From NCBI GenBank assembly GCA_009773005.1, contig WOUT01000023.1, positions 1 to 34,803 on the forward strand: a DNA stretch of 34,803 nucleotides, in the 5' to 3' direction. This document shows positions 22,570 to 28,260 of this stretch, one piece after another (position 1 is the first letter of the stretch; the number at the start of each line of letters is the position of its first letter). The notes under the pieces were generated by a model. That model ran no database searches. It saw only the letters and a list, made by a program, of their open reading frames with translations, and was not told where the DNA came from. The DNA comes from Chloroflexota bacterium. GTDB taxonomy: Bacteria; Chloroflexota; Anaerolineae; Anaerolineales; Anaerolineaceae. Made by a program: the position numbers and the translations under genes.

Positions 22570-22662
22570 AGGGCGGCCTTAAGATATACCCAAATTATTT
22601 TTGGTTAACTATAGCATACCTTTTCTTTGAATCCGCTTGTCCATATAGACGGGGGTATCAAG

Positions 22663-22668
22663 TACAAT
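22663..22668 (+). promoter_or_regulatory. Probable -10 box of the RsmI-family gene
   Basis: TACAAT lies 27 nt before the ATG. The best -35 match, TTGTCC (22637-22642), is 20 bp away, longer than ideal. The reverse strand of this -35 reads GGACAA, so the divergent murJ promoter may overlap it. Confidence 0.4.
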
Positions 22669-22695
22669 AAGGTGATCATACTGAAAGGAACGACC

Positions 22696-23370
22696 ATGGT
22701 TGCACCTGGAAAACTGTTTATTGTTGCGACACCCATTGGCAACGTTGAGGATATCACCCTGCGCGCGATTGAAGTATTAAAGATCGTGGATGCTGTAGTT
22801 TGTGAGGAATTCAAGCCGGGTAGTACTCTTCTGAAACGCCTCGGAATTGAAGGCAAGGAGATTGCCTTGCTCAATGAACACAACGAAGAGGAAGAAGCCG
22901 CGAACTTGTTAATTAGGCTGCTCAATGGTCAGAATCTCGCCCTGATCTCGGACTGTGGCACGCCGGTGTTTTCTGATCCGGGAGCTTATCTCATTCAACT
23001 CGCGGCTAGTTCCGGAGTGATAGTGACACCAGTACCAGGGGCGTCTTCTTTGATGGCTGCTCTTTCTGTACTGGATTTCAAGATGGGACGCTTTGTTTTT
23101 GCTGGTTTCTTACCGCGCGACCCTGAACAACGCCGGGGTGAATTAACCAGGTATCGATCCTTGCGCATCCCGGTTGTCCTCATGGATACACCTTACCGCC
23201 TGGGCGCTTTGCTGGATGATGTGATCAAGGTGTTCGGCAAAGCTCACTTTGTGACAGTCGCGTTTGATCTCACTCAGCCAACCGAGACGGTCTATCGCGG
23301 CGATGCTGCCGACGTGCGCAAACAGGTGGGTCCGCGCAAGGGTGAGTTTATTCTCATTGTAGGTAATTAA
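22696..23370 (+). CDS. rsmI: RsmI-family SAM-dependent methyltransferase (possibly 16S rRNA C1402 2'-O)
   Basis: 224 residues of the tetrapyrrole-methylase fold as used by RsmI: VATPIGNVEDITLRAIEVL (10-28), EHNEEEE (61-67), SDCGTPVFSDPG (85-96) and PVPGASS (112-118). It is clearly shorter than typical RsmI (about 280) because the C-terminal domain is missing, and the usual AEDTR motif is CEEFKPG. It is therefore a diverged RsmI relative and the exact rRNA target is uncertain. ATG 22696 is chosen because AAAGGA (22684-22689) precedes it; a longer in-frame extension has no ribosome binding site. Confidence 0.82.
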   Translation: MVAPGKLFIVATPIGNVEDITLRAIEVLKIVDAVVCEEFKPGSTLLKRLGIEGKEIALLNEHNEEEEAANLLIRLLNGQNLALISDCGTPVFSDPGAYLIQLAASSGVIVTPVPGASSLMAALSVLDFKMGRFVFAGFLPRDPEQRRGELTRYRSLRIPVVLMDTPYRLGALLDDVIKVFGKAHFVTVAFDLTQPTETVYRGDAADVRKQVGPRKGEFILIVGN

Positions 23371-23396: not shown

Positions 23397-23416
23397 GAGC
23401 TTGCCTATGCGGTAGC

Positions 23417-23510
23417 GCCTCCACGGAGATTCCCGAGCGCTAGCGAAGGTCCCCCGCAGAGGGGAGAACTCTGGATAACCCAAAAACCACCTTGCGGTGG
23501 TTTCGTGAGT
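23417..23510 (-). repeat. 94-bp tandem repeat, copy 1 (tRNA-Glu 3'-end copy plus terminator)
   Basis: Exactly 94 bp, differing from copy 2 at four positions (my count). Its first 16 bases on the plus strand (GCCTCCACGGAGATTC) equal the 3' end of the tRNA-Glu gene. It continues with a palindrome-rich segment (GAGCGCTAGCG) and ends in an AAACCACC/GGTGGTTT hairpin. Confidence 0.85.
23484..23503 (-). terminator. Intrinsic terminator in repeat copy 1
   Basis: An 8-bp stem, AAACCACC (23484-23491) with GGTGGTTT (23496-23503). On the minus strand the loop is GCAA and a T-run follows. Confidence 0.75.
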
Positions 23511-23604
23511 GCCTCCACGGAGATTCCCGAGCGCTAGCGAAGGTCCCCCGAAGAGGGGAGAGCTCTGGTTAACCAAAAAACCACCTTGCGGTGGTTTCGT
23601 GAGT
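23511..23604 (-). repeat. 94-bp tandem repeat, copy 2, adjoining tRNA-Glu
   Basis: Second copy, directly abutting copy 1. It begins again with the 16-bp tRNA 3' end and runs into the real tRNA 3' end at 23604/23605. Transcription of the tRNA (minus strand) therefore passes through copy 2 first, then copy 1. Confidence 0.85.
23578..23597 (-). terminator. Intrinsic terminator of tRNA-Glu (repeat copy 2)
   Basis: The same 8-bp stem as in copy 1, 7 nt downstream of the tRNA 3' end, with a GCAA loop and six Ts on the minus strand. This is the proper terminator of the tRNA transcript. Confidence 0.85.
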
Positions 23605-23676
23605 GCCTCCACGGAGATTCGAACTCCGGTTTTAGCCTTGAAAGGGCTGCGTCCTGGTCCCCTAGACGATGGAGGC
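23604..23676 (-). tRNA. tRNA-Glu (UUC anticodon)
   Basis: 73-nt cloverleaf on the minus strand. The acceptor GCCTCCA pairs with TGGAGGC, with discriminator A. The D-arm reads GTC...GAC, the anticodon loop CTTTCAA carries TTC, and the T-arm is CGGAG TTCGAAT CTCCG. The 3' CCA is not encoded. The D-arm start TCGTCTAG is typical of bacterial tRNA-Glu. One mismatch (C-A) is at the base of the anticodon stem. A perfect promoter lies upstream and a terminator downstream, so it is a monocistronic tRNA gene. Confidence 0.95.
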
Positions 23677-23748: not shown

Positions 23749-24894
23749 CTAATCCAGTTGCCAAGGTTCAGTGTTGTGCCCCTTGTTTGCATTTAATGAC
23801 TTGTAGATCGGTTCAGCCAAATTGGGGAGCACGTCTGCAACTGCCGAGAGCAGTCCAAAACAACCTGAGAGCATCATGTCACCAAAGGGCACTGCGAAAA
23901 AGGGTCTAAATCTTGAATTTTTGACCATGTTTCTGCGAGGTCCAGTCACGATAATGTTGAAATCGCTGTGATCCATTGATAAAGATTCTTGCGTATAGAT
24001 CAAAGCTCCGTGTCCATGGTCGGAGTAAACGCGGTCATTGGTTAGTGTACCCTGGGCAAATTCATAAATGTACTCATCAAGGGCAATCGGGTCAAGTATG
24101 CCAGTATGATGTTCGAAGACCCCCTCTATCCCGGAAGGTCCAAGGCGAAATGCCAGAGTATGAAAATTGCCGATATTGGCGATCATCACTCTGTTATGGT
24201 CCCTGAAAGACGGGTCATAGGTCGCGCCGAGAATGGCAGCCGGGGCGGTATCCATCACGACCAGCGGGGTGCGCAGGTCTTTGGCAGAGTCTGCCACCGC
24301 CTGCAATCGGGTCATAATTTCGGGGATTTGATTGCTTAAATACGCAAAAGCGCTTAATCGATTCTCTGCCCGTATCCTTTGATCAAGATATTCAAAACGG
24401 AACTTCCGATCTGATATATCCGCTGGCGCATTGCCGTGGTCAAAGACCGCCACTGCCACCGCATCCAGGTCAGACAGACGAACGCCGAACAATGCAAATG
24501 CTTTTTCGATTTGTTGGAAGTCAAAGTCGTGCAGCTCGATTCGAACGACGTTATTATGTAACGAACCTGCTTCCTCCTCGCTGACGAGAATAACTCCCAT
24601 TTCTTTGATCATATTCAGGTCGTCATTGACAGTTCTGGCGGCATCGGGTGTGGCAAACGTTCTAAATCCACTAGCGATATGGCCGTTCACAGCCCAGCCG
24701 CAGGGGCCTCCACCCATAGTCACCCCTGTGAGTACGATATCCCTTTCTGCTTTGGTGGCAGCCAATATTTGCTGCCTGACCATCATGGTTGGGGATGGCA
24801 GGACGAGTTTGTACCCATTTTCAATATCCAGGCGGGAATCATATAAAAAGATATCTTGTGTGCCTGTTCCTACATCAATTGTCAGGATTTTCAT
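23749..24894 (-). CDS. DUF1786 family protein (actin/Hsp70-fold-like)
   Basis: 381 residues resembling DUF1786 proteins, sometimes labelled as related to pyruvate formate-lyase activation; the true function is unknown. It starts MKILTIDVGTGTQDIFLYDS, a phosphate-1-like loop as in ASKHA ATPases, with further glycine-rich segments (VTMGGGPCGW, MIANIGNFHT) and the late VPFGDMMLSGCFGL. It overlaps the PII-like gene upstream by 20 nt, so translation is probably coupled. A role connected to the antiporter and its PII-like regulator is suggested by position only. Confidence 0.72.
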   Translation of the reverse strand: MKILTIDVGTGTQDIFLYDSRLDIENGYKLVLPSPTMMVRQQILAATKAERDIVLTGVTMGGGPCGWAVNGHIASGFRTFATPDAARTVNDDLNMIKEMGVILVSEEEAGSLHNNVVRIELHDFDFQQIEKAFALFGVRLSDLDAVAVAVFDHGNAPADISDRKFRFEYLDQRIRAENRLSAFAYLSNQIPEIMTRLQAVADSAKDLRTPLVVMDTAPAAILGATYDPSFRDHNRVMIANIGNFHTLAFRLGPSGIEGVFEHHTGILDPIALDEYIYEFAQGTLTNDRVYSDHGHGALIYTQESLSMDHSDFNIIVTGPRRNMVKNSRFRPFFAVPFGDMMLSGCFGLLSAVADVLPNLAEPIYKSLNANKGHNTEPWQLD

Positions 24895-25252
24895 TGAACA
24901 TGGTTTTCCTGTCTAACCCAAAGGCGCGTGCAACAGGCAGGACGGTTAAGATGCCGGAGTTTGGAAGGTTAAGGTCACCGACAATTGATTGGGTGGCTTC
25001 GACGACCTTGTCAACCATTTCATTGTCATTGACAACTGTAAATAAAGTGCGGTTCAAACGTTCTTCCTGTTGGATCAAATCTTCGAGACTTGGGATGAGG
25101 GGCAGATCTTCGCGCAGCACATCCTGGGTTTGAAGTCGTTTCAAGCCAGTGCTTGGCAAAACCGTGATGCCACACACACCAGCCTTTTCCCAGACTTCCA
25201 ATACGTCTCGCAGCAAATCTGGATCGTGTAAAACGAACAAGATCAGATACAT
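24875..25252 (-). CDS. PII-like (GlnB-fold) regulatory protein
   Basis: 125 residues with a ferredoxin-like beta-alpha-beta pattern typical of the PII superfamily: LILFVLHDPDLLRDVLEVWE then GVCGITVLPSTG, and TLFTVVNDNEMVDKVVEATQ then SGILTVLPVARAFGL. The canonical PII tyrosine-loop signature is not seen, so this is a non-nitrogen PII-like protein. Its ATG shares one base with the antiporter stop (TAATG), with AAGGAG 8 nt upstream. PII-like proteins commonly bind nucleotides and gate a neighbouring transporter; control of the antiporter is therefore the leading inference. Confidence 0.72.
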   Translation of the reverse strand: MYLILFVLHDPDLLRDVLEVWEKAGVCGITVLPSTGLKRLQTQDVLREDLPLIPSLEDLIQQEERLNRTLFTVVNDNEMVDKVVEATQSIVGDLNLPNSGILTVLPVARAFGLDRKTMFNENPDN

Positions 25253-26490
25253 TATGCATTCTCCTTGCTTAGAATTGAGTCTGAAACAGGCGGTTGATCT
25301 GGCTTTTTGGGTTTCTCTGAGAAAGCCGCACGCAGAAGGGGGGGAGTGATTACCGTGGTGATCAGAATCATGGCGATGATCGACGAAAATAATTCTTTTG
25401 AAAGAAAACTTGAATCAAGTCCGATTTTTGCGATGATCAACCCGACTTCACCGCGGGATATCATCCCGATACCTATTTGCATGGATTCACGAAAGCTGAA
25501 TTTCGAGAGCAGGGCTCCGGAGCCGGAACCGATTACTTTGCCTGCCACGGCAATAATAGAAATTGCAAGTATGGTCCAGAGAGCGTTTAGATCAATAGAA
25601 TGCAAATCAACACTCAGTCCGATGCTAATGAAAAAGATCGGAACAAAAAAGGCATAAGAGATGGAATGAAGGTTGGTCTCGATCAGTGATTTTTCGGGTG
25701 TGCGAGCGAACATCAACCCGCTTATGAAGGCGCCTGTGATAGCCGCCATCCCGCCAACCAACTCGGCAGCCAGACCGTAGACTAAAAGGACGACGATAGC
25801 CAGGGTGGTTACCCCCTGGCTGATGGAAAGTTTATGAATGAAACGGACCAACTTCGGCAGCACCCATAACCCGATTGCAACTGAAAGTCCGAAGAAGAGC
25901 AGCATCTTTCCGAATATTAATAGAATACCGACTGTGCTGCTTCCGCCGGACAAAAATGCCACGAAAGAAGAAAGCAGCAGAATGACTAGCACATCATCAA
26001 AAATCGCCGCGCCCAGCAAGCCAAGCCCAACCCGGCTTCTGATGACCTTCAACTCAATCAACACCTGTGCCGAAATGGATACCGAGGTGGCGCCAAGCGT
26101 CAACCCAAGGAAAACGGAATGGTTGAAATCCAGTCCGGTCAGTTCGCCAAACAGGATACCTAAACCTACTGGAAGGACAACGCCAAATATGCCTGCCAGC
26201 GCAGCCACCCTGGTATTTTTGGTCAAATCTTTAAAATGTAATTCCAACCCTGCTAAAAACATCAAGAGGAGTACGCCGAGCTCCCCCATTTCAGCGATGA
26301 TCTCTGGTAGATGGGTATCGGTTACAAATGTCATGTGAGTTAGATTTAAAAGCGATGGGCCGAGCAGGACGCCCATTAGTAGTTCACCAAAAACCGAGGG
26401 CTGTCCGAAACGTGTGCTGAGATAACCCGCGAATTTTGCGGCGACCAAAATGATGGCGACCAGAGCTATGAGTTGAAGAAAATTTGACAT
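25252..26490 (-). CDS. Cation/proton antiporter, CPA2 family (Na+/H+ exchanger domain)
   Basis: 412 residues with about 12-13 membrane segments. Family features are FGQPSVFGELLMGVLLGPSL near the start, LLMFLAGLEL, the paired acidic residues AAIFDDVLVI in the transport core, and the late GMISRGEVGLIIAKIGL. It exchanges Na+ or K+ for H+ across the inner membrane. There is no RCK/TrkA-N domain at the C-terminus; the separate PII-like protein encoded next may take that regulatory role. The ATG at 26490 lies 120 nt from the divergent mutase gene. Confidence 0.9.
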   Translation of the reverse strand: MSNFLQLIALVAIILVAAKFAGYLSTRFGQPSVFGELLMGVLLGPSLLNLTHMTFVTDTHLPEIIAEMGELGVLLLMFLAGLELHFKDLTKNTRVAALAGIFGVVLPVGLGILFGELTGLDFNHSVFLGLTLGATSVSISAQVLIELKVIRSRVGLGLLGAAIFDDVLVILLLSSFVAFLSGGSSTVGILLIFGKMLLFFGLSVAIGLWVLPKLVRFIHKLSISQGVTTLAIVVLLVYGLAAELVGGMAAITGAFISGLMFARTPEKSLIETNLHSISYAFFVPIFFISIGLSVDLHSIDLNALWTILAISIIAVAGKVIGSGSGALLSKFSFRESMQIGIGMISRGEVGLIIAKIGLDSSFLSKELFSSIIAMILITTVITPPLLRAAFSEKPKKPDQPPVSDSILSKENA

Positions 26491-26610: not shown

Positions 26611-28260
26611 ATGAGTCTGGAAAAAGAGAAAAAGCGTTGGGATGAAGAAGTAGCCAAGCCATCCGTTGAAAAATTCAAAGAACGCAAGCCCGAATTTTTA
26701 AGTCCTTCAGGGATTCCGATCCCCAGAGTTGCCACTCCCGGTGAATTTGATTACCTCGAACAGTTAGGGTTCCCCGGTGAATATCCGTTCACTCGCGGGG
26801 TGCAGCCCACCATGTACCGCAGCCGGTTATGGACGATGCGCCAATATGCCGGGTTCGCTTCCGCTGAAGAATCGAACCGCCGCTACCGCTATTTGCTGGA
26901 TCAGGGGCAGACAGGTCTTTCGGTTGCCTTTGACTTGCCTACCCAGATCGGTTACGACGCGGACGACCCCATGTCTTTGGGCGAAGTTGGCAAAGTGGGC
27001 GTTTCCATATCCTCAATGCGCGATATGGAAACTCTCTTTGACCAAATACCACTCGAGAAGGTTTCAACCAGCATGACCATCAACGCTCCAGCAGCCGTGT
27101 TGCTAGCTATGTATATCGCGGTGGGCAAACGTCACGGGGTGGATTCCAAACAGTTGCGCGGAACGATCCAGAACGATATCCTCAAGGAATATGTAGCGCG
27201 CGGAACCTACATCTTCCCGCCTAAACCATCCCTGCGCTTGATCACAGATATCTTCCAATTCTGTGAAAAGGAAGTGCCGAATTGGAACACCATCAGCATC
27301 TCCGGTTACCACATCCGCGAGGCCGGATCAACGGCGGTGCAGGAAGTTGCTTTTACGATCGCGGACGCCATTGCCTATGTGCAGGCAGCCATTGACTCCG
27401 GACAGGAAGTGGATCAATTCGCCTCGCAGCTCTCCTTCTTCTTCGCGGCGCATAATGACTTTCTGGAAGAGATCGCCAAATTCCGCGCCGCGCGCCGCAT
27501 TTGGGCGCAGATTATGCGCGACCGCTTCGGCGCCAAGGATCCGAAATCGTGGATGCTGCGCTTCCATACCCAGACCGGCGGTTCCACGCTCACCGCTCAG
27601 CAGCCCGAAAACAACGTGGTGCGCGTCGCCATTCAAGCCCTTGCTGCAATTTTAGGCGGTACGCAGTCATTGCACACCAACTCGATGGATGAAGCTCTTT
27701 GGCTGCCCACCGAGAAATCTGTGCGCACTGCGCTGCGCACCCAGCAAATCATTGCTCATGAATCCGGCGTGGCAGACACCGTCGACCCCATGGCTGGTTC
27801 CTTCGCCATCGAATACCTGACCGACGAGATCTGCAAACGCGCCTTGGAATATATCAAGCGTATTGATGACCTCGGCGGAGCGCTGGCAGCCATCGAAAAA
27901 GGGTACATGCAGAACGAGATCCAGGATTCGGCGTACCGCTTCCAGAAGGATGTGGAGAGTAAACAGCAAGTCGTAGTCGGCGTCAATTCCTTCCAGGCTG
28001 AAGATCAAAAGGATCTTGAACGAGTAAAGGTGAACCCAGCCATTGAGCAAAATCAGGTGGCAAAACTAGCCGAACTGCGCAAGAATCGCAATAATGTACG
28101 CGCCGCTGAACTGATGAATAATTTGGAAAAAGCCGCCAAAGGCACCGAAAACCTGATGCCCCTGCTGGTGACTTGCATGGAAAACGACCTGACTCTTGGT
28201 GAGGTGTGCGGCGTGCTGCGCAAAGTGTGGGGCGAATATCAGCCTCCCGTTTGGGGATAA
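26611..28260 (+). CDS. Methylmalonyl-CoA mutase, catalytic (alpha) subunit without B12 domain
   Basis: 549 residues containing only the TIM-barrel CoA-binding part. It interconverts methylmalonyl-CoA and succinyl-CoA, but the cobalamin-binding domain must come from another polypeptide. Y79 (TMRQYAGF), R197 (YVARGTY) and H234 (ISGYH) match Tyr89, Arg207 and His244 of the Propionibacterium enzyme at a constant offset of 10. These positions favour methylmalonyl-CoA over isobutyryl-CoA. The strong ribosome binding site GGGAGGAAAAG precedes the ATG. The epimerase gene follows by 18 nt; no small subunit or MeaB-like GTPase is in the window. Confidence 0.92.

Follow-up and report, generated by a model that had tools for sequence, protein, structure and literature searches.

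A PII-like protein as probable regulator of a NapA-like CPA2 antiporter encoded next to it in Chloroflexota

PII proteins are textbook nitrogen sensors. The complexes of PII proteins with carriers that are named in a review of the field involve trimeric channels or carriers, plus ABC transporters, and in one of them, GlnK-AmtB, the T-loop of the PII protein blocks the ammonium channel (PMC10710835). In cyanobacteria the PII-like protein SbtB has a dedicated transporter partner, the bicarbonate transporter SbtA, and structures of SbtB with AMP, ATP and cyclic di-AMP (c-di-AMP) exist (PMC10117731). PII-transporter pairs in general are an already known kind. Here we describe a locus in a 34,803-nucleotide stretch of Chloroflexota DNA (contig WOUT01000023.1, assembly GCA_009773005.1; this whole stretch is called the window), in which the genes of a CPA2 cation/proton antiporter, a small PII-like protein and a DUF1786 protein follow one another (Table 1). 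In our opinion the PII-like protein is probably a dedicated, nucleotide-responsive cytosolic regulator of the antiporter, which is encoded just 5' of it, and the DUF1786 protein probably stands apart. The gene pairing, the fold, the partner-specific loop and the partner switches described below were all computed in this work.

The overlap of the three genes, proposed in a first-pass annotation made from the letters of the window, was found to be exact: base 25252 is common to the stop codon of the antiporter gene and the start codon of the PII-like gene (TAATG), and the 3' end of the PII-like gene shares 20 nucleotides (nt; 24875-24894) with the start of the DUF1786 gene. The same annotation had seen in the three genes a possible regulated cation transport system. 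Comparison of genomes sustained this idea for the antiporter and the PII-like gene, but not for DUF1786. Among 61 genomes, i.e. the window's genome and 60 relatives, 35 had an ortholog of the antiporter (E <= 1e-60), each in single copy, and 43 had PII-like matches. The PII-like gene directly adjoins the antiporter ortholog in 34 of the 35 (G046, G052, G056 and G059 included), whereas five of the 34 pair-bearing genomes have DUF1786 as the next gene after the pair. The antiporter and the PII-like gene are linked almost perfectly in their presence (Fisher p = 2e-16, uncorrected for kinship). The adjacency is more than chance, and the evolutionarily kept unit is the antiporter together with the PII-like gene.

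The proposed coupling to a CPA2 antiporter was thus seen in many Chloroflexota genomes and also in one record from another phylum. In this Subdoligranulum record (Bacillota) the order is reversed, the PII-like gene being followed by a Na_H_Exchanger gene (E 7.5e-32), therefore the link between PII-like protein and antiporter exceeds one phylum and one gene order. The order PII-like gene then CPA2 gene is also found in a Chloroflexota copy, L178, whose sequence is divergent and sits on a long branch of the tree described below (2.73 changes per column), with one stop inside its match. The plasmid searches returned just this Bacillota record and otherwise two Alkalihalophilus matches covering the CBS part only; two viral-contig scans contained no relatives.

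CPA2 antiporters are not the only partners of the family. Copies of the PII-like gene were gathered from the relatives and from a sample of 400 Chloroflexota genomes (E <= 1e-5, 60 or more model columns covered), and a carrier gene directly adjoins 90 of the 97 Chloroflexota copies that were classed. A CPA2 antiporter stands beside 57 copies, of which 56 are 3' and one is 5' of the antiporter gene. A further 27 are directly 5' of a Na/Ca exchanger (CaCA) gene, four are PII-CBS-CBS fusions directly 5' of a CitMHS carrier gene (L055, L056, L072, L175), and two have a CitMHS gene on one side and a CaCA gene on the other. These carrier neighbours are tblastn matches, and the CaCA and most of the CPA2 labels rest on tblastn; the carriers checked with Pfam were the window CPA2 antiporter, those of L220 and L270, two CaCA, six CitMHS and three DUF1538 proteins. 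Pfam recognized CBS domains in all six fusions and CitMHS in six of six loci. The window's genome itself contains a second PII-like gene, which overlaps a Na/Ca exchanger gene (PF01699; L053). The 97 do not include the first copy of L060 (same place as L006), L185 (same place as L070), seven loci of the DUF1786 scan, L270, and the weak or partial matches of G338, G395, G309, G380, G312, G302 and G329 (L261-L267); L034 (from G015), L260 and two stretches in L179 were dropped for covering fewer than 60 model columns.

In a tree of 94 PII-like copies the CaCA-type copies form one branch (support 100/100), which also holds two orphans and two CitMHS-PII-CaCA copies. The CBS fusions form another branch (100/95), and the CPA2-type copies are spread over the remainder. 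The tree is unrooted, based on 118 columns and with unsettled bootstrap values, and its finer order is unsure. Its simplest reading is that the family started out with CPA2 partners and switched once to each of the new partner classes. The tree and the loop comparison used one representative of each set of identical sequences and omitted L060's second PII copy; in L059 the second copy counted as CaCA despite the other copy in between.

Some of the loci have unusual arrangements. In L063 (G020:C135, 1452-4554, minus strand) genes of a separate CBS-domain protein, a CitMHS carrier, a PII-like protein and a CaCA exchanger stand together, the CBS part, which is elsewhere fused to PII, being a gene of its own. 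The PII-like/CaCA gene pair is duplicated in tandem in L159 (G406), and the PII-like gene alone in L059 (G022). UmpAB, made of DUF1538 proteins, acts as Na+(Li+,K+)/H+ antiporter, and the main text of its description has no mention of PII or P-II (PMC5484666). In the phylum scan DUF1538 genes neighbour weak P-II matches, belonging to more distant P-II proteins: at L179, L262 and L263 the UmpAB-type genes were confirmed by Pfam, and visual inspection suggests the same for L261, L264 and L265.

The segment that corresponds in position to the T-loop appears, from the sequence comparison, to be specific for the partner. At a core identity of 0.35-0.45 loop identity was 0.32-0.36 within CPA2-type pairs, 0.25-0.29 within the CaCA type (47 pairs) and, across the two types, 0.15; as gaps were scored as mismatches, differences in loop length contribute to these values. 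The motif [EDG]DxP[LIFV][IMFVL] occurs in 51 of 55 CPA2-type and in none of 27 CaCA-type sequences, and P-x-[RP]-[YF] in 19 of 27 CaCA-type and in none of 55 CPA2-type sequences, both patterns having been derived from the same sequences on which they were counted. The PII-like protein of the Bacillota (Subdoligranulum) record has neither motif.

A different explanation of the gene pairs would be that the PII-like protein steers how the exchanger is expressed or assembled, or acts on other targets, and that adjacency serves gene dosage without any binding. PII proteins act on many kinds of targets, and two orphans and two CBS fusions that have no carrier gene right beside them would fit such a role. 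It is, however, at odds with the way the loop sequence tracks the partner, with the survival of the pair through an order reversal, and with the fact that another PII-superfamily protein can take the place of the PII-like gene at the same antiporter (see below). We regard the explanation by dosage or other targets as unlikely.

Sequence profiles give a faint signal for the window PII-like protein: P-II, its sole Pfam match at E <= 1, has E 0.001 and 19.8 bits, under the curated cut-off of 25, and NCBIfam yielded no match at E <= 1 for this protein or for the DUF1786 protein. Among the sequences of solved structures its best match (E 1.5) was an unrelated protein, and the best match of the family profile (E 0.032) was a PII protein. 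The AlphaFold2 model (8 sequences) has a beta-alpha-beta-beta-alpha-beta core with a predicted local distance difference test score (pLDDT) above 90; the mean pLDDT is 75.3 and the predicted template modelling score 0.65. Loop 36-64, with pLDDT below 50, lies where PII proteins carry the T-loop. All 50 rows listed by Foldseek for the PDB were PII or PII-like entries (best E 1.7e-5). VIA-align matched the model with a cyanobacterial PII (Z 12.5, 98 residues aligned, 3.8 Å), SbtB (6mmq; Z 11.7, 80 aligned, 2.3 Å), PstA (4rwx; Z 11.2, 81 aligned, 2.5 Å) and PotN (Z 11.2); as all these Z scores are between 11.2 and 12.5, the PII subfamily is not readable from the fold. PII entries stand at the top of the results of both structural searches. 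The model and both structural searches agree with the GlnB-like fold suggested for the small protein by the first-pass annotation, thus the protein is predicted to have a PII fold with a flexible T-loop.

The locus shares with GlnK-AmtB the adjacent genes, the PII fold and, as proposed here, a block by the T-loop, and SbtB chains are among the structural matches. There are also differences from the known systems. The B-loop ATP motif of PII (TGxxGDGKI) was not found: none of 94 PII-like sequences contained G[DE]GK or TGxxGxG. In contrast to GlnK, the protein scores under the P-II cut-off and its exchanger is a presumed dimer. Unlike the SbtB gene, the window gene adjoins a gene of the Na_H_Exchanger family (PF00999) and not SbtA, and the C-terminal R-loop motif CxxxxC of SbtB was found in 0/94 sequences. 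PstA/DarA proteins (CdAMP_rec, PF06153) belong to the PII superfamily. The window protein did not match PF06153 at E <= 1, and the GGFL part of the c-di-AMP motif of PstA (GGF[LM]) was absent from all 94. A scan of the whole genome of the window (rated 97.5% complete) found no canonical P-II at E <= 0.001, unlike 13 of 14 control genomes, in which it is present. In the same genome a diadenylate cyclase was matched with E 1.5e-41, and CdAMP_rec gave three matches. No report of a PII-like partner of CPA2, CaCA or CitMHS carriers was found in a literature search that left most subscription papers outside; this silence is weak evidence of novelty.

One group of genomes points to a probable class of ligands. 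In G060 (L220), which has the sole antiporter ortholog without a PII-like neighbour, the antiporter gene is followed by two CdAMP_rec genes (E 1.4e-19 and 1.6e-21). In G169, which has the same genus code as G060, an antiporter (57% identical) is again followed by two CdAMP_rec genes (E 9.5e-22 and 1.6e-19), and GGFL or GGFM is kept in all four of these proteins. Three other genomes with this genus code, G047, G104 and G349, have the PII-like gene. As a control, none of the 30 best-scoring (not randomly chosen) CdAMP_rec loci of the class showed these carriers within flanks of about 1.5 kb; CdAMP_rec genes are common, being present in 204 of 298 genomes of the class. The PII-like gene at the antiporter has been replaced in G060 and G169 by non-orthologous CdAMP_rec genes. 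A more distant antiporter, in L272 (G308; 36% identical, E 3.8e-55), is under the 1e-60 limit and outside the count of 34/35; neither kind of regulator was seen downstream of it in three forward frames.

The replacement, the CBS fusions and the relation to the PII superfamily suggest an adenine nucleotide or c-di-AMP as ligand. CutA-type relatives of the PII fold bind metal or other ions, and it could be argued that the PII-like protein, too, binds an ion and reports ion load instead of a nucleotide: its partners are ion carriers, and the three PII-family motifs that were looked for are all absent from it. Against this stand the c-di-AMP receptor genes at the same antiporter and the fusion to CBS domains, which usually bind adenosine ligands. 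An ion sensor is, in view of these points, quite improbable.

In the mechanism that we favour for the nucleotide-responsive regulator, the PII-like protein would most likely be a trimer, by analogy, with adenine nucleotide or c-di-AMP bound in the clefts between subunits. The partner-specific T-loop would dock onto the antiporter from the cytosol, where the ligand state would decide between block and release; direct binding and inhibition are suggested by the examples of GlnK-AmtB and SbtB-SbtA, from which we infer the direction of control. The PII-like protein would thus fill the role that the RCK domain has in other CPA2 proteins, and the family would have spread from CPA2 to CaCA and, as PII-CBS-CBS, to CitMHS-type carriers.

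Several points weigh against a dedicated, nucleotide-responsive regulator. CPA2 antiporters are dimers and PII proteins are trimers. The ligand is not readable from the sequence, because all three motifs of PII families are absent. Evidence from gene neighbourhoods is evidence of linkage, not of contact, and the genome scans covered Chloroflexota, with one record from outside the phylum; in the phylum sample 40 of 400 genomes had a match. Seven of the 97 copies are without any of the three carriers (CPA2, CaCA, CitMHS) directly adjacent: two orphans, two CBS fusions (in one of which, L057, a CitMHS match is 691 nt off), one tandem copy, one copy at a contig edge and one beside DUF1538.

If the regulator is as we propose, a PII-like family tied to Na/H- and Na/Ca-type exchangers would bring ion and pH homeostasis within the reach of PII signalling and would supply RCK-less CPA2 antiporters with their missing regulator. 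It would also raise a structural question, how a trimeric sensor sits on a dimeric exchanger. The replacement by CdAMP_rec leads to a specific ligand hypothesis, which is directly testable. A broader possibility is that the family is a general plug-in regulator of ion exchangers, with an exchangeable T-loop, serving three or more unrelated classes of carriers (among them CPA2, CaCA and CitMHS), dimers included, and swappable with the c-di-AMP receptor PstA. We hold this tentatively and with slightly more doubt than confidence; if true, PII-based control of ion homeostasis by adenine (di)nucleotides would be a rule that reaches beyond trimeric transporters.

The antiporter itself matches the NapA type. 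Pfam found no domain besides Na_H_Exchanger at E <= 1, thus the protein lacks an RCK domain, as had been noted from the sequence. Its nearest solved chain, the 394-residue Na+/H+ antiporter 4bwz (E 5e-44), which we take to be NapA, is likewise without RCK, and since this chain aligns over residues 12-388 of 412, absence of RCK in the window antiporter is unremarkable. The next match among solved chains was KefC (E 1.4e-17). A possible difference from NapA is the PII-like gene partner. At the position of the Asp pair 65 of 67 distinct tblastn homologs have DD and two have ED. Such a pair is the mark of electrogenic Na+/H+ members of CPA2, e.g. NapA. The window antiporter has both the Na_H_Exchanger domain and the Asp pair that define NapA-like CPA2 proteins, and the pair predicts electrogenic Na+/H+ exchange; the identity of the cation and the exchange activity are predictions.

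The third gene of the operon presents a different picture. A literature search found no paper on DUF1786. In agreement with the ASKHA-like character noticed in the first-pass annotation, the AlphaFold2 model (pLDDT 93.3) resembles FtsA (Z 14.3, 225 residues aligned, 3.4 Å), pantothenate kinase (Z 14.0) and diol dehydratase reactivase (Z 13.3, 231 aligned, 3.7 Å), and D7 and G9-T12 of the N-terminal phosphate motif are invariant in 68 sequences. The DUF1786 protein has by this modelling an ASKHA/actin-like fold, and ATP hydrolysis by it is putative.

The annotation had gone further, suggesting that DUF1786 might belong to the transport system as an ATP-dependent partner, so that antiporter, PII-like protein and DUF1786 protein would form one three-part regulated system. 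The tight packing speaks for such a system: in the 12 loci with DUF1786 3' of the PII-like gene (L002, L007, L010, L014, L021, L076, L084, L089, L092, L095, L114, L134) the spacing is -17 to +44 nt. Its distribution does not. In the 61 genomes DUF1786 and the pair occur together in 13, DUF1786 only in 7, the pair only in 21 and neither in 20, i.e. independently of each other (Fisher p = 0.41), and of the 13 genomes with both, 5 have them side by side and 8 have them at separate places. We surveyed the best 80 of 477 relatives of DUF1786, all from Chloroflexota as far as the record titles tell. A methylmalonyl-CoA mutase gene directly adjoins DUF1786, in divergent orientation, in 18 of these loci, in 6 the antiporter pair lies between mutase and DUF1786, another one is truncated by a contig edge, 52 have neither mutase nor pair, and 3 have too little upstream sequence; altogether 73 (these 3 included) are without a PII-like neighbour. 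In G015 an intact DUF1786 gene is retained without the pair. The antiporter and PII-like genes have shrunk there to one 61-codon frame (L034:2468-2653, G015:C14), in which antiporter residues 1-37 are joined in frame to the PII-like C-terminus; this remnant is possibly a deletion scar or a metagenome assembly artefact. We consider the three-part system very improbable and rejected DUF1786 as transport partner, since it occurs independently of the pair and has methylmalonyl-CoA mutase more often than the pair as its neighbour. In view of the independent presence, the 8 of 13 genomes that keep the genes apart and the G015 remnant, DUF1786 is in the operon here but is probably separate in function, a passenger.

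Because of the frequent divergent pairing and the match to diol dehydratase reactivase, we also considered that DUF1786 might act as the reactivating ATPase of methylmalonyl-CoA mutase, a B12 enzyme. This role was not adopted: in G004, G005, G008, G010, G011 and G018 the mutase gene is beside the pair and there is no DUF1786 match, the 52 loci mentioned above have neither mutase nor pair adjacent, and the structural score of the reactivase is equalled by those of FtsA and pantothenate kinase. Among the DUF1786 loci L073-L152 (77 gene-called loci of the best 80) a VIT/ferritin-like open reading frame is beside 14, glycine-cleavage genes are found at 14 and 10, and a glutamine amidotransferase class II gene at 17, these names coming from reading of the sequence and not from profile matches.

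Table 1. Features of the locus and its flanks in the window
Feature	Position	Strand	Evidence or remark
CPA2 cation/proton antiporter, NapA-like, without RCK, 412 amino acids	26490-25252	minus	Na_H_Exchanger (PF00999) E 1e-63, residues 16-385 (Pfam)
PII-like protein, 125 amino acids, proposed antiporter regulator	25252-24875	minus	PII fold in AlphaFold2 model
DUF1786 protein, 381 amino acids, predicted ASKHA/actin-like fold	24894-23749	minus	PF08735 E 7e-79, 265 bits, cut-off 25
Shine-Dalgarno-like AAGGAG for PII-like gene	25261-25266	minus	within antiporter gene; 8 nt 5' of PII-like ATG; sequence reading
Asp165-Asp166 pair (FDDV) of antiporter	25993-25998	minus	DD in 65/67 distinct tblastn homologs
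T-loop-position segment of PII-like protein, residues 36-64	25061-25147	minus	pLDDT <50; CPA2-type motif [E/D]DxPL.PS
Methylmalonyl-CoA mutase large chain	26611-28260	plus	PF01642 E 2.8e-226; divergent from operon, upstream side
tRNA-Glu	23603-23676	minus	downstream of operon
16S rRNA 2'-O-methyltransferase gene	22627-23370	plus	downstream of operon

Beside the tRNA-Glu gene, at 23414-23601, there are two 94-nt tandem copies, which are 95% identical. Each contains a terminator-like hairpin, a kind of hairpin that is no commoner in the region than in shuffled sequences, and the starts of the copies resemble the tRNA-Glu gene at its 3' end.

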